From Firmicutes bacterium HGW-Firmicutes-14 (GTDB taxonomy: Bacteria; Bacillota; Thermincolia; Thermincolales; UBA2595), in assembly GCA_002840275.1 (NCBI GenBank), contig PHAB01000006.1, positions 62,001 through 126,000 on the forward strand: a stretch of 64,000 bases of DNA, given 5' to 3'. This document shows, one piece after another, positions 26,636 to 38,594 of this stretch. Position 1 is the stretch's first letter. The number at the start of each line of letters is the position of its first letter. The translations under genes were made by a program, and so were the position numbers. The notes beneath the pieces were generated by a model. It saw only the letters and a program-made list of their open reading frames with translations. It was not told the origin of the DNA and did no database searches.

Positions 26636-28297
26636 TTACTCATTGTAAGTCGCTTTCATTACTTCCCGGTATGTGGTTATTCCCTTCAGGGCTTTGGCCA
26701 GGCCATCCCGCTGCAGGGTCTTCATACCGTTTGATATGGCATATTTCAGGATTACATCCCGTGAACTCTTTTCATTGATAAGTTCCTTGATTTTGTTGTC
26801 TACCATAAGGATTTCATGGACTGCTGTCCGTCCGGAATAACCCGTGCGGTTGCAGTGGCCGCAGCCCCTGCCCCTGTAAAGAATCAGTTTTTCTTCCGGC
26901 GGGACGTTGAAGGCACGGCGTTCCGGAGAATCAGGTTCAACCACGTAAGGCTCCTGGCACTGGGTACATATTTTTCTGACCAGCCTCTGGGCGACCACTC
27001 CGATGACCGAGGAGGAAACCAGGAATGGCTCAATGCCCATGTCCAGGAGACGGGTTATTGCGCCTGCGGCATCATTGGTATGGAGGGTCGACAGGACCAG
27101 GTGTCCGGTCAGGGCTGCCCTGATGGCAATGTCTGCGGTTTCAGTGTCCCGGATTTCCCCTACCATGACGATATTGGGGTCCTGCCGCAGTATTGATCTC
27201 AGGCCGTTGGCAAAAGTCAGGCCGGCCCTGGTGTTGACCTGGACCTGGTTAACGCCGCGCAGCCTGTATTCTATGGGGTCTTCAACGGTGATGATATTTT
27301 TTTCAAAGGTGTTGAGCTGGCTCAGGGCTGTATAGAGGGTGCTGGTTTTGCCGCATCCTGTGGGGCCGGTAACCAGAATCATACCAAAGGGATGGTTAAT
27401 CAGGTTGTTAAAATTGGCCAGGTTTAATTCTGAAAACCCGATTTCATGAATGCTGAACAGGAACATGCTCTTGTCAAGAATCCGGATAACCACTTTTTCG
27501 CCGTCCAGGGTGGGCAGGGAAGAGACCCTCAAATCAATGCCCCTGCCGTCAATGTTGATTTCCATTCTGCCGTCTTGGGGCAGCCTTTTTTCAGCAATGT
27601 TCATGTTGGACATGAGCTTTATGCGGGGAATTATCAGCTTTTGCAGGTTTTTGGGGGGAGGGGCTATCACCTGGAGGACCCCGTCAACCCTGAACCGGAC
27701 CCTCAGGTCATCTTCCTGGGGTTCGATATGTATATCACTGGCCCGCAGCCTGATGGCATGGATAAACAGGTTATTTACATACTTGACCACAGGGGCTTCA
27801 TCAACCTTGGTTTTTATCTCATCCAGCTGTTCCTCGGACACTTCTTCCCTGTCTTCTTCATTGAACCCGTAAAACTTGTTTATCAGCCTCTTTATATCTT
27901 CTGAAACGGCGAAGCAGGATTCAACCTGGTACTTGGTAGCTACCGACAGGTCGTCCACAGCCACCAGGTTCAAAGGGTCGGCCATGGCCACATAAAGGAC
28001 CCCGTCTTCGATTTTGTATGCCAGGCAGTTGTATTTACGGGCCAGGGATTCGGGGATTATCCTCACCACTTCGGTGGAAATGTCTATGTCATCCAGTTGT
28101 ACCTGGTGAATGCCCAGCTGCATTTCCAGCAGGTTTACGATATCCTGTTCACTGACAAAGCCCTCATCAATAAGGATTTTGCCCAGTCTTTTCCCTGATA
28201 TCCTCTGGTTGTTGAGGGCGAGGGTGAGCTGGCCCTTGTTGATCAGGCCCTTTTCCAGAAGGATTTCCCCCAAGCGGGGCTGTTTTTCCGAAATCAA
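26636..28297 (-). CDS. pilB: Type IV pilus assembly ATPase PilB
   Basis: About 553 residues. TTG at 28297 is the best-spaced start behind GGGGGG; in-frame starts at 28312 and 28330 lack such a site. N-terminal MshEN/GspE-N-like domain, then Walker A GPTGCGKTS, Asp box, Walker B (MVGEIRD) and His box (GHLVLSTLHTNDA). A CxxC-x(n)-CxxC zinc site is present (CTQCQEPY ... CGHCNRTGY). Extension motor. No pilT retraction ATPase lies in this window. Confidence 0.93.
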   Translation of the reverse strand: MISEKQPRLGEILLEKGLINKGQLTLALNNQRISGKRLGKILIDEGFVSEQDIVNLLEMQLGIHQVQLDDIDISTEVVRIIPESLARKYNCLAYKIEDGVLYVAMADPLNLVAVDDLSVATKYQVESCFAVSEDIKRLINKFYGFNEEDREEVSEEQLDEIKTKVDEAPVVKYVNNLFIHAIRLRASDIHIEPQEDDLRVRFRVDGVLQVIAPPPKNLQKLIIPRIKLMSNMNIAEKRLPQDGRMEINIDGRGIDLRVSSLPTLDGEKVVIRILDKSMFLFSIHEIGFSELNLANFNNLINHPFGMILVTGPTGCGKTSTLYTALSQLNTFEKNIITVEDPIEYRLRGVNQVQVNTRAGLTFANGLRSILRQDPNIVMVGEIRDTETADIAIRAALTGHLVLSTLHTNDAAGAITRLLDMGIEPFLVSSSVIGVVAQRLVRKICTQCQEPYVVEPDSPERRAFNVPPEEKLILYRGRGCGHCNRTGYSGRTAVHEILMVDNKIKELINEKSSRDVILKYAISNGMKTLQRDGLAKALKGITTYREVMKATYNE

Positions 28298-28365
28298 TTG
28301 CAATCCCCCCATTATCAGAAATTTTTTCACTGACCGATATTGGGTTCATCAATAATGTCCCTGGG

Positions 28366-29745
28366 TCAATCAATAATATAATGATCTTTTTCAAAGTAGA
28401 TGTTCTGGGGTACCGGGTCCTTTTCCACCAGGGATTCGAGGTGACAATCCCGGCACCGGGTCGGTGTTGAAGGCCTGGGGTTCTGAAAAACCTCGGGACC
28501 ATGGGGCCATGGGTATTTGTTTTCTGCCGCGTTGCTGCCGTGACATCCCAGGCAGTCCTGGCCGGAATTCCCCAAAATGGAATGACAGTCCTCACAGTTT
28601 CTGGTTGAATGGTCATAAGGTTTTTTATAGTGACAGGTTGTACACGGTGTGTTGGTTTCCTTATCCCTGATCAAAAGGGAGTATTCATACTGCCCAACGG
28701 TGCCCAGCTCGTTGGCAATTTCCGCACGTACGGTATATTGCCCGTCAGGCCTTTCGCCCAGGCTGAATTCAAAATATCCTTTTGAATAATCAGGAGTTTG
28801 GCCGGCCGGGGCACCTTCCTTACTATATACTCCATAAACAAAGGCAAAAACCATGCCGGCATAGTCACCGGTTTCGTTTTCTGTTTTCCTGATACCCAGG
28901 TTAGCGGTATCTTCTATCAGACTGAGATTCTGGAAATCTTCAACTGCTATTACCAGCTTTGTTTCCCCGGGATACCGCACAGTTGCGATTTGACCTGGTT
29001 TTACCTGTTCTGTGGGATTGGTGAATTCCGGTCCGCCGCTGGCAACAGAGAAGGACCAGGATTCTTCAACCCTTTGCCCGTCAGGGGCAGTTACTCTTAA
29101 AAATACCCGGTGTTCACCTTCGGCAAGCCCGCTCCCTGGCCGGTATTCTACGCTTAGCGAATTTGCGGAATACTTATTTGTCACAGGCTGAATACTTTTA
29201 CCGTCAAGGGTCATATAGATGGCAGGCATTGATGTTGATATATCAATATCTTCCACCAGGGCAGAAATGAGCGGCTGCGCGACAGTAACCGAACCCTGGG
29301 GCTGAATGCCTGTTATCCTGGGCTGAACGGGTTCCGCGGGGTCCGGGACCGAAACTGTAAAGTTCCAGGAAATCCGGCTGTAATTGCCTTGCTTGTCAGC
29401 TATATGAAGAACTATGTTATGGAGGCCGCCGGACAGGGTTCCTGCGGCATATTTAATTTCAGCCTGCTTTTGTTCGTTTTCAGTCCGGATCTGGGCTCCG
29501 GTCCGGGCCTCTCCGTCCAGTTCAATATAGGTTGAGGCGGGGTTAATGCCATCCGGGTCGGAGGCGGTAGCCCTTATTTCAACCTGGTATGGGCTAATTG
29601 TAGTATTGGGGACAGGGTAGAGATTGCTGATATCCGGGCCGGAATTTTCGGCATAGGCGGCAATCCCAAGCAGCAGCAATAGGATTATACTGATTACCGG
29701 GTAAATAAATTTCCACTTATATGATGACCTGCTACTGTTGATCAT
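28366..29745 (-). CDS. Secreted tetraheme cytochrome c with Ig-like domains
   Basis: 459 residues. N-terminal membrane segment/signal (VISIILLLLLGIAAYAENSG), then two or three Ig-like beta domains (PYQVEIRATASDPDGINPASTYIELDGE; AQPLISALVEDIDISTSMPAIYMTLDGK; YEYSLLIRDKETNT), and a compact C-terminal cytochrome part with four hemes: CTTCH, CEDCH, CLGCH, CRDCH. The gene ends 68 bp before pilB on the same strand with no obvious terminator, so it is probably the first gene of the pilus operon. Likely a surface electron carrier; binding to the pilus is only a possibility. Confidence 0.88.
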   Translation of the reverse strand: MINSSRSSYKWKFIYPVISIILLLLLGIAAYAENSGPDISNLYPVPNTTISPYQVEIRATASDPDGINPASTYIELDGEARTGAQIRTENEQKQAEIKYAAGTLSGGLHNIVLHIADKQGNYSRISWNFTVSVPDPAEPVQPRITGIQPQGSVTVAQPLISALVEDIDISTSMPAIYMTLDGKSIQPVTNKYSANSLSVEYRPGSGLAEGEHRVFLRVTAPDGQRVEESWSFSVASGGPEFTNPTEQVKPGQIATVRYPGETKLVIAVEDFQNLSLIEDTANLGIRKTENETGDYAGMVFAFVYGVYSKEGAPAGQTPDYSKGYFEFSLGERPDGQYTVRAEIANELGTVGQYEYSLLIRDKETNTPCTTCHYKKPYDHSTRNCEDCHSILGNSGQDCLGCHGSNAAENKYPWPHGPEVFQNPRPSTPTRCRDCHLESLVEKDPVPQNIYFEKDHYIID

Positions 29746-29870
29746 AAAATCCCCCTATATTATTCGAAGAATTATATAATAGGAAGTAATGGTGCTATTA
29801 ACCATAATTCACCAAAAGTCGTGCAAATCCTCTATTCATCTGCATAATCTTTCGTACTAATTGGGGTATT

Positions 29871-29966
29871 ATGATGGCCGATAACAACCGTTTTGGCCAG
29901 GACAAAATAAACCAGGATTCGACAATTTATAAAGAATTTATTAAAAAAACCTTGCAAAAATTATAA
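29871..29966 (+). CDS. Possible small basic protein, 31 aa
   Basis: ATG with GGGG close upstream opens MMADNNRFGQDKINQDSTIY... and stops at 29964-29966, overlapping the -35 of the next promoter. The composition looks protein-like, but there is no homology argument; it could be a chance frame. Confidence 0.25.
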   Translation: MMADNNRFGQDKINQDSTIYKEFIKKTLQKL

Positions 29967-29980
29967 ACTGGGTATATAAT
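29952..29980 (+). promoter_or_regulatory. Promoter of the tandem riboswitch transcript
   Basis: TTGCAA (29952-29957), 17 bp, TATAAT (29975-29980). The start point near 29987 lies about 20 bp before the first aptamer core. Confidence 0.75.
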
Positions 29981-30007
29981 CTAGTTGAATAAAACTGTAT
30001 ATGTGGT

Positions 30008-30086
30008 TCCGATAATAGCAAACCCATCGAGAGGTGGGGACGCAAAGCCACGGGTCTGTAAGTTCAGACAGCCGGGTTGCCGAAGA
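30008..30086 (+). ncRNA. Cyclic di-GMP-I (GEMM) riboswitch, copy 1
   Basis: The GEMM core is present in order: GCAAACCC, GAGAGGTGGGGACGCAAAGC, CACGGGTCT, and the closing CAGCCGGGTTGCCG. By eye the residue aligned with the specificity base just before CAAACC is G, as in c-di-GMP binders; cGAMP-selective relatives have A there. A terminator follows 18 bp later, so ligand binding probably controls termination. Confidence 0.93.
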
Positions 30087-30104
30087 CAAGATTAGGTTTA
30101 ATTG

Positions 30105-30138
30105 CCTGTTCTCGCAACCCGGGAACAGGTTTTATTTT
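30105..30138 (+). terminator. Expression platform terminator of riboswitch copy 1
   Basis: CCTGTTC / GAACAGG stem followed by TTTTATTTTT. Its loop region GCAACCCGG (30114-30122) is the exact complement of CCGGGTTGC in the aptamer (30072-30080), so aptamer and terminator can compete. Confidence 0.85.
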
Positions 30139-30163
30139 TACTAAAAAAAATTAAATAGATAAA

Positions 30164-30242
30164 TCCGATAATAGCAAACCCATCGAGAGGTGGGGACGCA
30201 AAGCCACGGGTCTGTAAGTTCAGACAGCCGGGTTGCCGAAGA
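30164..30242 (+). ncRNA. Cyclic di-GMP-I (GEMM) riboswitch, copy 2
   Basis: Identical to copy 1 over all 79 bases of the core, beginning TCCGATAATAGC and ending TTGCCGAAGA. The specificity base is again G. It is followed by its own, different terminator. Confidence 0.93.
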
Positions 30243-30261
30243 TTTCCAGGTTGAAAATCCA

Positions 30262-30297
30262 CCTGTTTTCTCGGTGTCCCGAGAAAACAGGTTTTTT
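30262..30297 (+). terminator. Expression platform terminator of riboswitch copy 2
   Basis: CCTGTTTTCTCGG and CCGAGAAAACAGG form a perfect 13-bp stem with a 4-nt loop, then TTTTTT. Unlike the first platform, it lacks a complement to the aptamer's 3' strand. The ribosome site of the downstream gene follows at 30310. Confidence 0.9.
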
Positions 30298-30323
30298 AGT
30301 TTATAGAAAAGGAGGTGGAGGCT

Positions 30324-31238
30324 GTGAAAAACATGAGAAACAAAAAGCTGTATATGATAACGGCATATGTACTCATCATGATGTTCATGGCTCTGCCGGC
30401 CCAGGCCGCCCAAACTCTTAACATTAACTGGTTTGCTCCATATTATGATAACACCGCATCAGTGATTCTTCCGGAATCCGGCCAGGCAGACACTTCCTTC
30501 AGCTTCCAGGGAGAAATTGATTCCAAGTACAAGGCAGTACTGGTAAAGATAGTCAAGGGACAGGACAGTGTATATTACTACTATCCCGTCAATAACAATA
30601 CCGTTAGCGGCCAGGTATACCTGAGATTCGGAAAAGGTACATATCAAGTGGAAATCAATGTGGTAAAACCTGACCCCAACCCCGCAGTAATAGCCTTTGA
30701 CAAACTGGCCAGGACCAGTATCGAGAACACCGCGGAAGGTGACGGGAGATATCTCCTCCCTTCCTGGGGAATAGAAAGTGATAACCAGGCCATAGTAAAA
30801 CTGGCTAACCAGATTACCAAAGACATTAAAACCGATTATGATAAGATCAAGGCAGTCCACAACTGGGTCAGCAAAAACATTACTTATGACATGGAGAAGT
30901 ACAAGCAGGGTAAATTCTATGACAATGAGGGTGCGGTAAAAGCCCTGGAAACAAAAAAAGGACTGTGCAGGGATTACTCAAACCTTACAACCGCCCTGTT
31001 GAGAGCAGTGGGAATCGAAGCCAGAACAGTAATTGGGCAGGCAGCAACTAACGGTTCTTGGTACGGCCACGCCTGGACTGAGGCCAAAGTCGGTGACAGG
31101 TGGATAAGCATGGATACCACCTGGGATGCCGGAAATATTAAAAACGGCGGATTCGTCCCCAAATTCAGTGAAAAATACTTTGATATGGCCCAGACTGAAT
31201 TTGACAAGACCCATAAGAAGACCATGGATGTTTATTAA
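30324..31238 (+). CDS. Secreted transglutaminase-like cysteine protease/peptidase domain protein
   Basis: About 304 residues. GTG at 30324 has AGGAGG 8 bp upstream; GTG at 30315 lies inside that site. A signal peptide ends near PAQAAQ. An N-terminal beta domain is followed by a transglutaminase-like domain with a complete triad: Cys in KGLCRDYSNLTTALLRAVGIEARTV, His in YGHAWTEA, Asp in ISMDTTWD. Such secreted enzymes usually cleave or remodel surface proteins. Control by tandem c-di-GMP riboswitches suggests a role in the switch between motile and attached states. Confidence 0.88.
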   Translation: MKNMRNKKLYMITAYVLIMMFMALPAQAAQTLNINWFAPYYDNTASVILPESGQADTSFSFQGEIDSKYKAVLVKIVKGQDSVYYYYPVNNNTVSGQVYLRFGKGTYQVEINVVKPDPNPAVIAFDKLARTSIENTAEGDGRYLLPSWGIESDNQAIVKLANQITKDIKTDYDKIKAVHNWVSKNITYDMEKYKQGKFYDNEGAVKALETKKGLCRDYSNLTTALLRAVGIEARTVIGQAATNGSWYGHAWTEAKVGDRWISMDTTWDAGNIKNGGFVPKFSEKYFDMAQTEFDKTHKKTMDVY

Positions 31239-31266
31239 TAGGTTTTAACAGTATAAAAACTCAACT

Positions 31267-31293
31267 AAAACCCCGGATCTTCCGGGGTTTTTC
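31267..31293 (+). terminator. Terminator after the transglutaminase-like gene
   Basis: AAAACCCCGGA, loop TCT, TCCGGGGTTTT, then TC. Perfect 11-bp stem. The following ~440 bp up to 31736 hold no gene: AT-rich sequence with a weak hairpin (AGCTAC ... GTAGCT around 31388-31422), a promoter and a palindrome. Confidence 0.9.
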
Positions 31294-31596
31294 AATTTCC
31301 GGCAGCGGACAATTAACCGCTGTTTTTTTGTTGACAATTATTTTAACCCTCTTACAAAGTGTCGAAAACAAGAAAAATTCTTATCAAGCTACGTGTTTGG
31401 ACCTCCTGCGAAAGGTAGCTAGTGAATTTGGTAACGATTACTCTCATCTTAAAATCGACATTCTATCGACAATTCAGATCGTTTACCATGTATAAATATG
31501 TGGAAATTTACCGTTTTTATAAAAAATACATTATTTCCCAGAATATTCTCAAATTAGTCAACTGACATATATTTTACGACTTCGACACAAGCCATT

Positions 31597-31605
31597 TGTT
31601 ATAAT
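31597..31605 (+). promoter_or_regulatory. Extended -10 promoter of the cytochrome cluster
   Basis: TGTTATAAT is a perfect TGnTATAAT element 132 bp before the 12-heme gene. No matching -35 is seen. Confidence 0.45.
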
Positions 31606-31646
31606 CGAACCGGAAAATTATTAAAATGTAAAATTATTACTAATTG

Positions 31647-31658
31647 CTACGTTTGTAG
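31647..31658. promoter_or_regulatory. Possible operator, single palindrome
   Basis: CTACGTTTGTAG, flanked on the right by TAATT and on the left by AATTG, lies ~40 bp downstream of the extended -10. The half-site CTAC/GTAG is like those of the triple array upstream of the ccm operon. BlaI/CopY-type repressors use TACAnnTGTA-like sites. Confidence 0.35.
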
Positions 31659-31736
31659 TAATTTAAACAATACTAAACCCATTCTAAAATTGAAAATGCT
31701 TTGCCACAATTGTTGTAGAAAATAGGGAGGACTGGA

Positions 31737-32906
31737 ATGAACATTAAGGACATGGCAATAAAACACAGGTTCATTACGGTCCTGTTCTGTTTTGTCTGCC
31801 TGGTGCCTCTTAACATCACCACAAGAGTTATAATGCCTTCCAAAGTTTGTGCAGGGTGTCATATGATGAAACCTGAGTACAATACCTGGAGGGTTTCTTC
31901 CCATTCCGGCGTGAGCTGTGTGTCATGCCATATTGCCCCAGGGCCGTGGGGGGTGTTAAAAGGTTATGCTGATGGGGTAAAAAACATCTACAGTATGGCT
32001 GTGGGAAATTATGTTTCTCCAATAACTATGCTTACCCCAACCTCTGATGCTGCCTGTGAGAGGTGCCATGATGTAAGGGAACAGAAGAAATCCAAGTCGG
32101 GCAGTCTGGTGGTTGCCCATGAACTTCATAAAAAGATAAAAGTACCCTGTTTTAAGTGCCACAGGGGTATTGCCCACGGCAGGATAAGTGAGCGCAGTGT
32201 TACTTTTGAAAGTGACTACAAGAAATGGGATGTCACCCTTGGTGAATTTATGATGGAAGAAAATCAATATACCGACCCTGAAATGGATATGTGTTTCAGT
32301 TGCCACCGCCTGCGCAATGCGCCCCTGGAATGCAAAGCATGCCATATCCGGTCAGTCCTGCCTGATGCCCATAGGGATGAGGGTTTCCAAAATGGCGGGC
32401 ATGGTAAAAGGGCCGCAGAGAATTTAAAGGCCTGTGACAACTGTCACCGCTTCATGTCAGACCAAAACCAAAATACAGAAGGTCTGAAAGAAGATAAGAC
32501 ATACCTGGAATACATCGGGGCAGCCAAAAAGCAGGAGGATTATGTTTCTGTTATCAGTTATTCCCGGACGAATTCCTTCTGTAAAGCGTGTCATGGAAAA
32601 AGGCCGCCCAGCCATGATTCCCGGTACATAGAAAAACACGGGCCGCTGGCGGAACAGAACAAAAAGCGCTGTGCAACCTGCCATGATAATTACGTGATAC
32701 CGGGGGCCCAGTCCCAGTCCGGCCAGAGTACCATAGTGACCCAGACCGGCTGTAATAAATGTCATCCCAGCATCCATCAATATTCTTACCAGTGGAAAAA
32801 GGGATATCACCCCACCGACCTGCCTGCCAACCCAAGGATAACCAGATCCTGCTACACCTGCCACCCGGAAGGGACCTGCAGCGGGTGTCACGGCAGTTTA
32901 GAATAA
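31737..32906 (+). CDS. Membrane-anchored NapC/NirT-like dodecaheme cytochrome c
   Basis: 389 residues, ATG with AGGGAGG. One N-terminal membrane anchor (FITVLFCFVCLVPLNI). The first ~150 residues resemble the NapC/NirT/NrfH quinol dehydrogenase domain (CAGCH, CVSCH, CERCH, CFKCH, with SSHSGVSC). Eight more hemes follow: CFSCH, CKACH, CDNCH, CKACH, CATCH, CNKCH, CYTCH, CSGCH; twelve in all. It is positioned to take electrons from menaquinol and pass them outward to the cytochromes encoded downstream. First gene of the cluster. Confidence 0.9.
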   Translation: MNIKDMAIKHRFITVLFCFVCLVPLNITTRVIMPSKVCAGCHMMKPEYNTWRVSSHSGVSCVSCHIAPGPWGVLKGYADGVKNIYSMAVGNYVSPITMLTPTSDAACERCHDVREQKKSKSGSLVVAHELHKKIKVPCFKCHRGIAHGRISERSVTFESDYKKWDVTLGEFMMEENQYTDPEMDMCFSCHRLRNAPLECKACHIRSVLPDAHRDEGFQNGGHGKRAAENLKACDNCHRFMSDQNQNTEGLKEDKTYLEYIGAAKKQEDYVSVISYSRTNSFCKACHGKRPPSHDSRYIEKHGPLAEQNKKRCATCHDNYVIPGAQSQSGQSTIVTQTGCNKCHPSIHQYSYQWKKGYHPTDLPANPRITRSCYTCHPEGTCSGCHGSLE

Positions 32907-32934
32907 ATAGTCCACCATTTAAGGAGGTAAAGAA

Positions 32935-33612
32935 ATGTCAGTTACCAACCCGGAAGTAAACCTGAAAGCAGCTGTCAAAAACAAGAACAAGGATGACCGC
33001 TTTACCCTGCTGCAGGCCCTGACGATGATTCTGCTTACACTGGTGATAAGTATAGGTGGGTGGTATGCTGCCGGCAAATATTTTTTCTGGACCAACCTGG
33101 ATATGAAGAGGGTGAAGGCCCAAATAGAATTTTTACAGAAAAAGGTCGAGGCAGAGCCAAAAAACCTCGAACACCGGGTCTCCCTGGGTTACACCTATTT
33201 CCTGAAAGGTGATAATGACACGGCGGTCAAGGAACTGAACCAGGTGCTGGCCATCAACAAAAAGTATCCGGCCGCTTATTACAACCTTGGCCTTATATTT
33301 GAGGATGAAGGAAGACTGGATGAAGCCCTGGAGATGTTCCAGAAGACCATTGAACTGTCTCCCAAGGACTATAAGGCCCACATGCAGAAAGGCATTGTCT
33401 ACCGCAAACTGAAGATGTATAAGGAATCGGTGGAGTCACTGGAAAAAGCCAACAAACTGATGCCGGGCAGGGCCAACATTATTTACGAGATTGGCCGGGT
33501 TGCGGAAGACCAGGGGGACATTAAGTCTGCTGTCTTAATATACAAGGAAGCCCTGGGATATGACCCGCTGTTTAAAGAAGCGGCAGAAGCCCTGAAGCGT
33601 GTGGAGAAATAA
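32935..33612 (+). CDS. Membrane-anchored TPR protein
   Basis: 225 residues; AAGGAGG before ATG. One membrane helix (ALTMILLTLVISIGGWYAAG) and then four or more tetratricopeptide repeats (VSLGYTYFLKGDNDTAVKELNQVLAI; AYYNLGLIFEDEGRLDEALEMF; AHMQKGIVYRKLKMYKESVESL; YEIGRVAEDQGDIKSAVLIY). TPR proteins with an anchor are usual in clusters that assemble extracellular cytochromes. Probably a scaffold or export/assembly helper. Confidence 0.88.
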   Translation: MSVTNPEVNLKAAVKNKNKDDRFTLLQALTMILLTLVISIGGWYAAGKYFFWTNLDMKRVKAQIEFLQKKVEAEPKNLEHRVSLGYTYFLKGDNDTAVKELNQVLAINKKYPAAYYNLGLIFEDEGRLDEALEMFQKTIELSPKDYKAHMQKGIVYRKLKMYKESVESLEKANKLMPGRANIIYEIGRVAEDQGDIKSAVLIYKEALGYDPLFKEAAEALKRVEK

Positions 33613-33663
33613 CAGGAGGGAAGTATTTCCGGAGGAACCATTTCTAGTGGAGGAGGCATTCAG

Positions 33664-34662
33664 GTGGAAGAGGCTGTCAATGCAAAAAGGACGATAAAAA
33701 AGGTCCACGTTTATAATGTTATGCTGCTGGTTTTCCTGGCAGTATCCGCAGTCTTTGGTTACCTTTTCTATACCCAGACAGAGGTTACGGCATTATCAGA
33801 TATAGCAAACCCCAATGGACCGCCAACATACAGTCGTATGATATATGGCGGGTTTGGCGAAGAAGCCCTGGATAAACCCATGGATGTGGCGGCCATCGGT
33901 CAGTTCATATATGTTACCGACACAAATAATAAGAGGGTCCAGGTATTTGACCTGGGAGGGTCTCCCATGTTCCGTTTTGGAAAGGAAGGGGCCAGGCCCG
34001 GTGAATTTATGTTCCCATATGGTATAGCAGGCGATCCCCAGGGCAATGTCTATGTGGCGGACCTGTATAATGGCTGTATTTCCGTCCACGATGCCAAGGG
34101 AAAATTTATAAAATACTTTGCCGAGAAAGACCCGGATGAAAAGACCCTGGAATCTCCCGGAGGGCTGAGGATAGTGGATAACAAGGTCTATGTCACAGAC
34201 ATTACCAAGTGCAGGGTCTTTGTCTTCGACCTTACAGGCAAGAAACTGCTTGAATTTGGAAACATGGGTGTTAACCCCGGTGAACTCAGGGCGCCCAATG
34301 CGGTAACCGCGGATAAGGAAGGAAATATCTTTGTGGTAGATACAGGCAACCAGAGGGTCCAGGTCTTTGATAAAACCGGAAAATTCCTCAGGATAATTAA
34401 CGGCTCACCGGGCGGGAAAGGACCGTCAGCCTTTGTCAACCCACGGGGTATTGGGATTAATTCCCGGGGGGTCATTTACGTGGTCAGCAACCTAACCAAT
34501 TACCTGTATGGTTTTGATAAAGACGGGAAACAGCTGTTTGCCCTTGGCGGGTATGGGGGCGGCATGGACCAGTTTAACCTGCCCAACGGGCTTTTTGTAG
34601 ATGAAAATAATAATATTTATATCACAGACACTGTGAACCAGAGAGTTGCTATTTATGAATAA
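33664..34662 (+). CDS. Membrane-anchored NHL-repeat beta-propeller protein
   Basis: 332 residues, GTG with GAGGAGG. One membrane helix near the N-terminus (YNVMLLVFLAVSAVFGYLFY). Five or six NHL repeats follow, such as FRFGKEGARPGEFMFPYGIAGDPQGNVYVADLYN and LLEFGNMGVNPGELRAPNAVTADKEGNIFVVDTGNQRVQVFD. A six-bladed propeller outside the membrane is expected. NHL proteins recur in cytochrome clusters of Geobacter-like organisms; the exact role is unknown. Confidence 0.88.
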   Translation: MEEAVNAKRTIKKVHVYNVMLLVFLAVSAVFGYLFYTQTEVTALSDIANPNGPPTYSRMIYGGFGEEALDKPMDVAAIGQFIYVTDTNNKRVQVFDLGGSPMFRFGKEGARPGEFMFPYGIAGDPQGNVYVADLYNGCISVHDAKGKFIKYFAEKDPDEKTLESPGGLRIVDNKVYVTDITKCRVFVFDLTGKKLLEFGNMGVNPGELRAPNAVTADKEGNIFVVDTGNQRVQVFDKTGKFLRIINGSPGGKGPSAFVNPRGIGINSRGVIYVVSNLTNYLYGFDKDGKQLFALGGYGGGMDQFNLPNGLFVDENNNIYITDTVNQRVAIYE

Positions 34663-34784
34663 CGAAAGCAATCCCATTATATGGGGTGATGGTAACCTCC
34701 GGCCGGAATATGCACGGGAGAGGAGGTGTTTTCCAGTGTATGGCTGAGAGGATACATACCAATAAAAAAATAGGAGGAAGAAAA

Positions 34785-36518
34785 ATGCGGAGACTGTTTG
34801 TACTGCTTTTTACACTGATCTTTTTAATTTCCATTCCCGCCACTGCATTTGCTGCATTTGACACGAACAACCCGGATGACCCGTCTACAAACGTTCCGGC
34901 CCCCGGTCAGCCTTATGACCCTGATGCCCTGACCGATGGGGATACCCAGGACAACAGTATCGGAAACGCCAACCGTTCCGGTGGTGACATTAGCAATGTT
35001 GAAATCCAGGCGGAATTTGATTTGAGCAACATGGATGGCAATAACATTATCAAGTCTAAAAACATGAGGATGAATGATTACACTAGCACAGGGACCCAGA
35101 GAACCCACGGCACATACCAGAACAATACCAACTCATGTGCCAGCTGCCACCAGACCCACACCGGTGCGGGCAAAGACCTGCTGATCAAAAAGGGTGTGTA
35201 CAACACCTGTTCAGCCTGCCATGACGGCACCCTTGGGTTCTATAACGTATTTTCACCCTCAACTGCCGGTACTTTCGGCGGCACCCATTCACCGGTTGAC
35301 GGCAACCCGTCTGTCCACCTGGCCAATGGGACCCTGCCGGTAAGCGTGGCCCCCGGTTTCAATGACTATTCGTCAGGCAACCCGGTACCCGCTGATGCTT
35401 TTGACTGTGCAGGCTGTCATGCCCCCCACGGTTCCTACAGTGACCGGATCCTGCATTACAGCCCTAACGGCATGGCTAATATCAGCATCGACCAGAAGGG
35501 GAAAAAGCTGGTAGGCAAGACTATCATGGATGACCCGCTTCTCCTTCCAGCCCCGAATTCTCCCTCCCCCAACGAATCTGACAAGTATGTCGTATTCCGG
35601 GGAGCCAACGGTTCAAGCGCTGATGACATGATTTATGTCCCGCAGGAAGCTGCAGGTACCCAGGTAGTTGTCGTGCTCAAGAAAACCCAGGTTGACGATG
35701 GGACCGGAACCCTTATATGGGAATGGAAAACCGACGATAACCCGTGGGTTGCCGGATTTGAGCACCAGGCAAATGATATGAATACCTATACCCTTATGTT
35801 CACCCAGTTCTATAATGCAGCCGATACCGCCATTACCGAAGATGCTGACGAAGACGGCGATATTGACCGTGATGATAAACTGGCCATGGACATCAGGTAC
35901 GGCCATTCCTATGCCAAGGGTACAGCTATTGCTGATGCAACCAAGGCTGACATCGCCCGCGCTTATGTTGTAAAACTGAGCGGTGTTGCCGGGATGAACC
36001 CCTCAACCATCGCTGATTTTGGCGGAATTGCAATTACTGCGATTAACCCTGATATTTACGATGAGCAGGGCATCGGTCTTGAAATCAGCCGTTATTGCGG
36101 CGCCTGCCATACTGATTATATGACCCATTCCACCAGAGAACTCGGTGACTGGATTTACCGTCACAGCACCGATAAGGATCGCTTCAACTGTCTGAAGTGC
36201 CACTTTGCCCATGGTACCGATGTAATGATCATGAAGGATGCCAGGGACAGGGATATCAATTACCTGACAGATGTAGAACTTTTACCGGAAGCTGATGCTG
36301 TTGCCTACCTCCTGGATAACAACCCGTCCTCCGCTCTCAAGAGGTATACGAACATGGCAGTCTGCTGGAAGTGCCACAGCGGCGTATCCGGTAAGTCCAG
36401 CAAGCTCATGAACAACACCAATGTATGGGATGATTATGAAAATAATCCCTGGGGCGGCCTGAATCCTGACACAGGTATTCCTCTTGAAGCTAACTGGACC
36501 AATAACAGTTGGGAATAA
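34785..36518 (+). CDS. Secreted hexaheme c-type cytochrome, 577 aa
   Basis: ATG at 34785 has AGGAGG and gives a normal signal peptide (RLFVLLFTLIFLISIPATAFA). Six CXXCH motifs: CASCH, CSACH, CAGCH near the N-terminal third, then CGACH, CLKCH, CWKCH near the end, with ~200 residues of heme-free sequence (DDMIYVPQEAAGTQV) between. The first three follow the doubled-CXXCH style of cytochrome c3-like domains. Likely an extracellular or wall-associated electron carrier. The heme count is that of some nanowire-forming cytochromes, but the spacing here is not compact. Confidence 0.88.
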   Translation: MRRLFVLLFTLIFLISIPATAFAAFDTNNPDDPSTNVPAPGQPYDPDALTDGDTQDNSIGNANRSGGDISNVEIQAEFDLSNMDGNNIIKSKNMRMNDYTSTGTQRTHGTYQNNTNSCASCHQTHTGAGKDLLIKKGVYNTCSACHDGTLGFYNVFSPSTAGTFGGTHSPVDGNPSVHLANGTLPVSVAPGFNDYSSGNPVPADAFDCAGCHAPHGSYSDRILHYSPNGMANISIDQKGKKLVGKTIMDDPLLLPAPNSPSPNESDKYVVFRGANGSSADDMIYVPQEAAGTQVVVVLKKTQVDDGTGTLIWEWKTDDNPWVAGFEHQANDMNTYTLMFTQFYNAADTAITEDADEDGDIDRDDKLAMDIRYGHSYAKGTAIADATKADIARAYVVKLSGVAGMNPSTIADFGGIAITAINPDIYDEQGIGLEISRYCGACHTDYMTHSTRELGDWIYRHSTDKDRFNCLKCHFAHGTDVMIMKDARDRDINYLTDVELLPEADAVAYLLDNNPSSALKRYTNMAVCWKCHSGVSGKSSKLMNNTNVWDDYENNPWGGLNPDTGIPLEANWTNNSWE

Positions 36519-36695
36519 AAAATAAGCTGACAAAATAATATGCCAGCTTAAAGAGTAGTGAATAACATCCGGCTAAGGTATTATGCCCACCATAATACCT
36601 TAGCCATTTCCTTAAAAATATTTCTCTGTATCTAATAATTGTATTTAAATTGGCGGATTTTGTCAATGAACAGATCAGCCGGGAAGGGGGCATTA

Positions 36696-38594
36696 ATGAA
36701 GCAGAAGATGCGCTTGAGAAGGTTGTTTGGCTGGGGCGCTGTTTTTTTCGTCTGCCTGTTTATAACTGCATACCCTGTTCCCGCGCTGAGGAAACTGGTT
36801 TATTTTGTGGTGCCCGACATTGTGCTGGCGGCCATGCCTCCTGCAATTACTATAACCGGCCCGGTGGATGGCCAGGCATTAAATACCACAACAGTGGATG
36901 TGACGGGGACAACCGAGCCCGGGGTGATGGTCAGTGTATATATGGACAGTGTTTTCACCGGTTCAATAGCGGCAGATGGAAGCGGAGGCTGGACCCTGGC
37001 TGCCGGGCCCCTCTCTGAAGGGTTACACACTGTCTTTGCCACGGCTGTCGATTTATCAGGCAGCCTGGGGACTTCTGAGACGGTTTCCTTTGAGGTGGAT
37101 ATTACACCTCCTGATATCAGCATAACAAGTCCTGTTGACGGGGGATATGTCAACCGGCCGTTAATTGAAGGCCGGACAGAGCCGGGAGCGGCAGTGGCGG
37201 TTCACGTTTATGGCCGTGAGATCCTGGTGACAACCGATGAGACCGGATACTGGAGCTGTTTGGATGTCCTCATGACAGAAGGCAGCTATTCCGTATATGC
37301 CGCAGCTACTGACAGGGCCGGAAACAGCCAGAGTTCGGGGACCAATTCTTTTGTTCTGGATACCACCCGCCCGGTTATCCTGCCTGAAATCAGTCCACCT
37401 AATGATATGACAAGGGTCTCCCTGGAAGTCACGGCATGGGTCTGCCTGGTGGAGAAGAACCCTTTGAACCCTGAATACCTGGATACAGCCATTATCCTGA
37501 CTGAAAAAGGGGGCAGTGTCAGTACAAGTGTTTACGGGACGGTTTATACCGCTGTTTACAATGATGCCTATGGTGACCCGTATTATAAAATTTCCTTCAG
37601 GCCGGACCTGCCTTTAAAACCTGCCGCAAAATATATGGCAGCTGTTAACCCGCTGCTGTCAGATGCAGCCGGCAACCCTGTCCACCCCAGGACCTGGAGT
37701 TTTACCACCGTATCTCCGTCAGCAACAGAAAACCCTCATGGGAATTACCTGGACAATGTTAATACATGTGTAAACTGCCATACGACCCATAGAGGGACTG
37801 CACCCAGGCTGGTTATCTCAAGGGACCCCCTCTATTCGGAAATAGATGCTTACTGCAATGCGTGCCATGACGGGACAGCTGCACCTATCCCGGAAAACTG
37901 GCCTAAAGCCGTCCGGCATGATTATAAAGTAAACATTGAAGGCATCAGGGGGATTAGTGCGTGTACCTCATGCCACAACCCCCACCTGCCGTGGACACCG
38001 GTAAACCCGAACTTTCTCCAGGACTATTATTATTTTGACCACAATGATCCGACTAACCCCTATCTTCCCGATTCCAGCGAAGAATCCATGTGTGAACTAT
38101 GCCATGCCTATACCATTCTGGATGACCCCAGGGTTTCTTACGTCAGGTATCAATATAACAAGCGGCACACAGCCACAGGCAGCCTGGAAGATTACAGCCT
38201 GTGCCTGCGCTGTCATGATGGAAGTAATGCCACTGATATTAAAACCTATTATGGGAGCCCATCCAGGCATATTATCACAGCCGGTGACGAAAGTCCCTTA
38301 AGCGGGCCGATACCTTGTGCCGATTGCCATAACACCCATGGGTCGGGAAATCTCAGGCTGTTAAAAGAGGAACTGGGGCATAACCGGACCCGGACATTTC
38401 AGACTGCAGGAGATGTTTGGGATGCAGCCGCTGAACGCATATTTTGCACCGGGTGCCATAACAATTCCACTGAGCTTTATGGAATTGTTGCCGGTTTTGT
38501 CTATAATATCCCCGGTCATGAAGACACCTGTACCGAGCCGTGCAGCAGCTGTCACGGTGGGTCTCCGGCGGCAGCGGCCCATGCACCGCAGTAG
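36696..38594 (+). CDS. Octaheme c-type cytochrome with bacterial Ig-like domains
   Basis: ATG at 36696 (GGAAGGGGG upstream), 632 residues. A signal/anchor helix (LFGWGAVFFVCLFITAYPVPAL) precedes two Ig-like domains of the type ITITGPVDGQALNTTTVDVTG / ISITSPVDGGYVNRPLIEGRTEPG and a third SbsA-like Ig domain (VILPEISPPNDMTRV ... AAGNPVHPRTWSFTTV). Eight hemes fill the C-terminal half: CVNCH, CNACH, CTSCH, CELCH, CLRCH, CADCH, CTGCH, CSSCH. A surface cytochrome with adhesive or stalk-like domains. Confidence 0.9.
   Translation: MKQKMRLRRLFGWGAVFFVCLFITAYPVPALRKLVYFVVPDIVLAAMPPAITITGPVDGQALNTTTVDVTGTTEPGVMVSVYMDSVFTGSIAADGSGGWTLAAGPLSEGLHTVFATAVDLSGSLGTSETVSFEVDITPPDISITSPVDGGYVNRPLIEGRTEPGAAVAVHVYGREILVTTDETGYWSCLDVLMTEGSYSVYAAATDRAGNSQSSGTNSFVLDTTRPVILPEISPPNDMTRVSLEVTAWVCLVEKNPLNPEYLDTAIILTEKGGSVSTSVYGTVYTAVYNDAYGDPYYKISFRPDLPLKPAAKYMAAVNPLLSDAAGNPVHPRTWSFTTVSPSATENPHGNYLDNVNTCVNCHTTHRGTAPRLVISRDPLYSEIDAYCNACHDGTAAPIPENWPKAVRHDYKVNIEGIRGISACTSCHNPHLPWTPVNPNFLQDYYYFDHNDPTNPYLPDSSEESMCELCHAYTILDDPRVSYVRYQYNKRHTATGSLEDYSLCLRCHDGSNATDIKTYYGSPSRHIITAGDESPLSGPIPCADCHNTHGSGNLRLLKEELGHNRTRTFQTAGDVWDAAAERIFCTGCHNNSTELYGIVAGFVYNIPGHEDTCTEPCSSCHGGSPAAAAHAPQ

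Follow-up and report, generated by a model that had tools for sequence, protein, structure and literature searches.

In the 64-kb stretch of DNA analysed here (the window), two GEMM-I (c-di-GMP-I) riboswitches lie one after the other upstream of a gene for a predicted secreted transglutaminase-like enzyme. We propose, with a probability of roughly 60%, that the pair is a serial two-stage OFF switch for this enzyme and that its ligand is most likely c-di-GMP. Without ligand, the 3′ strand of each aptamer, including its C92-equivalent, would pair into the nascent terminator and block terminator formation. With ligand bound, the aptamer would retain this strand, the terminator would form and RNA polymerase would stop. 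Two identical OFF stages would leak less and respond somewhat more sharply than one. The pair would be part of a widespread Bacillota GEMM-I/transglutaminase regulon, and in this lineage a terminator may have replaced the usual ribosome-site second stage while the two aptamers were homogenised.

A cmscan search of the window at the gathering score returned two GEMM-I matches, both on the forward strand (Table 1), and no other Rfam element. For each the best model was RF03167 (c-di-GMP-I-GGC), at 70.9 bits against a gathering score of 59; four overlapping, weaker hits to other families in its clan were excluded. The E-value of 8.6e-15 places both aptamers far beyond chance, and the sequence-only reading had assigned them to the right class. 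It had also reported that the copies are identical over 79 bases. The identical run is exactly that long (30008-30086 = 30164-30242) and breaks at the next base on either side. Each aptamer has a terminator of its own, as had been claimed, with a hairpin and a U-rich tail. The further statement that the two expression platforms are unrelated comes close to the truth. The one stretch they have in common is the 10-nt AACAGGTTTT, a match that 33 of 1000 shuffles equalled, and beyond it the comparison gave no support for a shared ancestry of the platforms. The scan found one promoter-like site on the + strand upstream of the transglutaminase gene and, between the aptamers, no internal promoter for riboswitch 2. 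The riboswitches thus lie in series and, like pseudo-cooperative tandems, comprise two complete units of aptamer and platform behind one promoter. Given the identical aptamers, both units are likely to be similarly sensitive to one ligand.

Table 1. Features of the tandem riboswitch locus (window coordinates). Vc2 positions 20, 47 and 92 were put onto both aptamers by hand.
Feature	Positions	Strand	Remarks
Promoter-like site, sigma-70-type	29952-29980	+	TTGCAA-17-TATAAT; consensus match only
GEMM-I aptamer 1	30008-30085	+	A20-equivalent 30017, A47-equivalent 30044, C92-equivalent 30080
Aptamer 1 3′ strand, CCGGGUUGC	30072-30080	+	Aptamer pairing, or predicted antiterminator 1 with 30114-30122
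Intrinsic terminator 1	30104-30140	+	Stem 30104-30130, 11 pairs, TTTATTTTTA, U-rich tail
Antiterminator 1 partner, GCAACCCGG	30114-30122	+	Inside terminator 1
GEMM-I aptamer 2	30164-30241	+	A20-equivalent 30173, A47-equivalent 30200, C92-equivalent 30236
Aptamer 2 3′ strand and antiterminator 2 strand, GCCGAAGA	30235-30242	+	Predicted to pair with 30269-30275 before terminator completion
Intrinsic terminator 2	30261-30298	+	Stem 30261-30292, 14 pairs, TTTTTAGTTT, U-rich tail
Shine-Dalgarno AGGAGGU	30310-30316	+	3′ of terminator 2, outside the aptamer; read from the sequence
Transglutaminase-like gene	30324-31238	+	304 aa, GTG start; signal-like N-terminus; GLCRDY, GHAW and MDTTWD catalytic-type motifs

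Predicted folds suggest how each unit could switch. The free fold of riboswitch 1 (-46.0 kcal/mol) pairs the 3′ strand of the aptamer with its partner inside terminator 1 as an antiterminator, and with the aptamer enforced (-37.7 kcal/mol) terminator 1 is present. For the transcript ending at 30122, the gap between antiterminator and aptamer is 14.6 kcal/mol. In riboswitch 2 the corresponding pairing is found in prefixes ending at 30277-30287, where it removes the C92-equivalent from the aptamer. The antiterminator fold is ahead at 30282 (-43.8 versus -30.3) and terminator 2 is dominant by 30292. Full-length riboswitch 2 forms terminator 2 with and without the aptamer constraint, so its control must be kinetic. 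Both terminators are downstream hairpins that contain no aptamer sequence, and each can form alongside its aptamer. Each antiterminator uses the strand of the aptamer that carries C92, a base that pairs with the ligand, and repression by ligand is thus predicted. Since the energies describe secondary structure only, with ligand and tertiary contacts left out, we infer the OFF direction: the ligand probably switches the downstream gene off. The sequence-only reading had named no direction of switching. Two observations count against this logic. The lowest-energy fold retains the terminator in five orthologous first riboswitches (G004, G005, G006, G007 and G008), and the alternative pairing of the riboswitch 1 type is imperfect in G005.

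Both platforms have the layout of Cd1, the OFF switch of Clostridioides difficile described in PMC9262584, although the sequences of the two platforms differ. In Cd1, too, the terminator is compatible with the aptamer and the antiterminator consumes the ligand-pairing strand, opening the binding pocket. Unlike the window pair, Cd1 as described there is a single riboswitch with a G at the pocket position and a flagellar target. Two terminators in series had been expected to steepen the response, which is correct in sign but small in size. By calculation, two independent identical OFF stages narrow the 90-10% range from 81-fold to 40-fold, with an apparent Hill coefficient of 1.19, a modest gain.

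At the position equivalent to Vc2 G20, where the pocket discriminates between bases, both window aptamers have an A, as is typical of GEMM-Ib riboswitches that bind cGAMP, instead of the canonical G; the sequence-only reading had taken c-di-GMP as the ligand. A47 and C92 are canonical in both. In the cmscan alignment the RF03167 consensus GACGCGAA has a G at the A47 position, where the window copies have an A (GACGCAAA). The family name, in which GGC presumably stands for G20-G47-C92, is therefore not to be read as a ligand class. The host genome (99.96% complete) has at least 20 GEMM-I matches with an E-value of 0.01 or better, from 150 of 435 first-look candidates that were scored. Position 20 is G in 17 of these 20 (L017 read by eye) and A in three, the window pair and L020; the other 18 aptamers of the genome thus have 17 G and one A. 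L020 (1501-1586, G000:C21) is a single aptamer before a different secreted-protein gene and scores lowest of the 20, at 50.6 bits. Aptamers L003 (1501-1670) and L010 (1501-1669) are about 170 nt long, with a long insert of repeated CAGTT-type units in the P3 loop.

An A at the G20 position is "commonly observed" in c-AMP-GMP-responsive variants (PMC9481103) and is linked to cGAMP binding in PMC6274999 as well. PMC9481103 reports that a single change at position 20 of a Desulfobacca acetoxidans aptamer gave markedly better c-AMP-GMP binding, with c-di-GMP binding perhaps slightly weaker. When A or C replaced the equivalent G in Cd1, stability was neither greatly raised nor greatly lowered in the assay used (PMC9262584). 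From these results, A20 broadens or shifts specificity and does not prove a cGAMP sensor. We favour c-di-GMP as the most likely ligand, bound by a detuned pocket that perhaps holds c-di-GMP less tightly and accepts cGAMP to some extent. In the literature searched, we found no description of A20 pockets in GEMM-I/transglutaminase arrays.

We also examined which cyclic dinucleotides the host could supply. Hypr GGDEF enzymes have a Ser in place of the Asp equivalent to PleD D344 (PMC6456294, PMC7288161). The host genome encodes 17 GGDEF domains; each was read, and all 17 have Asp at the specificity position with none of the Hypr type, making c-di-GMP the likelier ligand. A search of the same genome for SMODS cyclases had no matches while its control searches were positive. 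The DncV model also had none there, but no control matched either. Across Bacillota, a bare A20 aptamer pattern, which misses AGCAAAAC forms (L020, G310, G353), matched 82 of 398 genomes. We kept 36 by eye as P2-hairpin-like and dropped 46. The G20 aptamer pattern matched in 30 of the 36 as well. A Ser-type Hypr pattern, not calibrated on a known Hypr enzyme, matched none of the 36 and the Asp-type pattern 35, although the Asp form finds only 14 of the 17 host GGDEF domains, so about 18% may be missed in other genomes. One Hypr candidate, in G358 with one mismatch, was discarded because the residue is Asn (AAT), not Ser. The contrast of 0/36 with 35/36 indicates that, as far as sequence patterns can tell, A20 is widespread among Bacillota that have no recognised enzyme for making cGAMP.

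The product of the downstream gene, whose GTG start was picked by comparison with orthologues, has a Transglut_core domain (E 1.5e-29). Among solved structures the closest chain, at E 1.3e-09, is 3isr, described as a "transglutaminase-like enzyme, putative cysteine protease". Together with the signal-like N-terminus, the domain agrees with the secreted transglutaminase-like target named earlier, secretion being a prediction. Calling it a protease goes too far, as the evidence reaches only a transglutaminase-type domain with Cys, His and Asp motifs; the likeness drawn to clostridial surface proteases is one of analogy, not homology. A type IV pilus cluster adjoins the riboswitch locus and includes, at 26636-28330 on the reverse strand, a gene for a PilB/GspE-type ATPase with an MshEN domain (PF05157, E 1.2e-19). 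The MshEN domain is a c-di-GMP binder, and we count this neighbour as support for the c-di-GMP explanation. Multihaem cytochrome genes (Cytochrome_C7, NapC/NirT-like, doubled CXXCH) lie on either side of the transglutaminase gene in 28366-38594, with genes for TPR and NHL proteins interspersed among them.

Close homologues of the transglutaminase (55-69% identity) are encoded in five other genomes of the family, all with aptamers upstream. In three of these, from one genus (G004, G007 and G008), both aptamers have G20 and the second runs directly into the Shine-Dalgarno sequence. G005 has A20 in both aptamers and the same ribosome-site second stage. In G006, aptamer 1 has A20 and there is a second terminator like that of the window, the second aptamer being truncated next to an assembly gap. 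Copies 1 and 2 are 100% identical in the window, 93% in G005 and 90-91% in the G20 genus. Within that genus the first copies of different species are 94-98% alike, more than they resemble their own second copies, so the tandem predates the split. The sequence-only reading had taken the perfect identity to mean a recent duplication or gene conversion. A recent origin by duplication does not fit a tandem that is found in four of the family's genera and also outside the family; the window aptamers appear instead to have been homogenised from an older pair. A tree of eight transglutaminases did not separate the order of G000, G005, G006 and genus g5, so the direction from G20 to A20 rests on parsimony. 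Three loci have a further GEMM-I aptamer just 3′ of the transglutaminase gene (L041 1120-1202 in G004, L043 1176-1258 in G007 and L040 2635-2718 in G005). The spacer between riboswitches 1 and 2 is longer in G004 (L041) and includes a palindromic segment resembling a small insertion.

To determine how common this arrangement is, we matched a profile of three such transglutaminases against 398 Bacillota genomes. It matched 47 (E 1e-40), and loci were examined for 30. GEMM-I lies upstream of the gene in 27 of the 30, the exceptions being L137, L138 and L143. With the three loci of the G20 genus, 33 of the 47 matched genomes were covered, and 30 of these 33 homologues have the riboswitch. L137 (G385) has a c-di-GMP-II riboswitch at 2552-2635, 3′ of its transglutaminase gene. 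The 30 GEMM-I-bearing loci comprise 20 arrays, among them G006 despite its truncated second aptamer, and 10 single aptamers. In 22 of the loci (21 by pattern, G221 by eye) a Shine-Dalgarno-like stretch directly adjoins the last aptamer. Exceptions with a downstream second terminator are the window and G006, and neither arrangement is plain in six loci (G093, G116, G138, G158, G191 and G215). A20 is found in nine of the 20 arrays (G000, G005, G006, G215, G292, G310, G353, G358 and G376) and in none of the 10 singles (one-sided Fisher p 0.012). Counted by family, the figures are five of eight for arrays and none of nine for singles (p 0.009), a comparison in which f32 belongs to both groups and relatedness is taken into account only in part. 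G20 and A20 aptamers occur together in four arrays, namely L126 (G215), L116 (G358), L141 (G310) and L142 (G353), as though successive aptamers differed in ligand or in affinity. Neighbouring aptamers are also identical in G138 (100% over 84 nt), making the identity in the window unusual but not unique. In L126, L129 and L130 (G215, G191 and G138) a U tract directly follows the last aptamer, for example GGTTTTTTTA, unlike the type that abuts the Shine-Dalgarno sequence. These may possibly have a terminator built with aptamer sequence, of the ON type.

Tandem c-di-GMP-I riboswitches before COG1305 genes are reported as enriched in Bacillota, 94% as doublets and 6% as triplets (PMC12452182). They have the same aptamer class, number, target family and phylum as the window pair, confirming that the arrangement was already known; the window adds an example that varies in its pocket and platform. 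The passage on these tandems in PMC12452182 gives counts only, with no pocket change, platform types or switching direction. For c-di-GMP-I, PMC9481103 lists 347 doublets and 12 triplets, with the remark that its evaluation of tandems is not comprehensive. The pseudo-cooperative tandems it describes are likewise complete riboswitches in series for one ligand, the window pair being of the terminator and terminator type. Most homologues, with the last aptamer abutting the Shine-Dalgarno sequence, look bi-mechanism or ribosome-site controlled, whereas the bi-mechanism examples presented in PMC9481103 are from SAM classes only. Geobacter has tandem cGAMP riboswitches before OmcAHG (PMC6456294). 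The GEMM-Ib riboswitches there resemble the window pair in the A of the discriminating pocket, the tandem and nearby genes of the extracellular electron-transfer type. The window differs in its Gram-positive phylum, its OFF-type platforms and the lack of a Hypr GGDEF among those found.

A rival explanation makes the two A20 aptamers genuine GEMM-Ib sensors, with 3′,3′-cGAMP from an unrecognised synthase controlling the enzyme beside multihaem cytochromes and type IV pili. Both copies have A20 where 17 of the 18 other aptamers of the genome have G, and the contacts reported for the cGAMP riboswitch in PMC6274999 (A9, A11, A12, A14, A41 and C75) have possible counterparts here in GAUAAUA, A47 and C92. 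The improved c-AMP-GMP binding of the Desulfobacca aptamer (PMC9481103) and the neighbouring genes, whose functions are under cGAMP control in Geobacter (PMC6456294), point the same way. However, the host has neither a Hypr GGDEF among its 17 nor a SMODS cyclase, the Hypr pattern is absent from all 36 A20-bearing Bacillota genomes while the canonical form is in 35, and the equivalent G to A change had no large effect on stability in Cd1 (PMC9262584). We regard a cGAMP sensor as unlikely. Slightly less likely still is a wider version, in which some aptamers of the GEMM-I arrays upstream of secreted transglutaminase genes, all of them or one of two or three, became cGAMP readers in several Bacillota lineages. 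The mixed G20/A20 arrays would then be two-input gates for c-di-GMP and cGAMP, served by a synthase that current motifs miss.

The direction and number of the switching stages may also be other than we propose. Ligand-stabilised aptamers could prevent termination at both stages, as in Geobacter pilM. The cGAMP riboswitches of Geobacter are ON switches (PMC9262584, PMC6456294), and PMC12452182, assuming ligand-promoted transcription, suggests that both aptamers of tandem c-di-GMP switches must be bound for transcription. The pilM terminator, by contrast with both terminators here, consumes an aptamer strand (PMC9262584), while those of the window coexist with the aptamer, and we consider an ON switch improbable. 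To the same degree we doubt that only one stage switches, with terminator 2 too strong, aptamer 2 decorative or a fail-safe, and the identity a passive by-product of recombination. The full-length fold of riboswitch 2, with its terminator in either case, agrees with this. Against it, the riboswitch 2 antiterminator, C92 included, is seen shortly before terminator closure. Moreover, aptamer 2 is complete and matches aptamer 1 exactly, and different families have retained arrays. The serial two-stage OFF switch remains our preferred reading.

The pair offers a clean natural test of tandem riboswitch evolution. A double sensor of the same gene is kept across families while its pocket shifts from G20 to A20 and its second platform from ribosome-site to terminator control. 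If the A20 aptamers of Bacillota read c-di-GMP only, A20 alone would be unfit for annotating cGAMP sensing. Should they read cGAMP instead, Bacillota would have an undiscovered cGAMP pathway.
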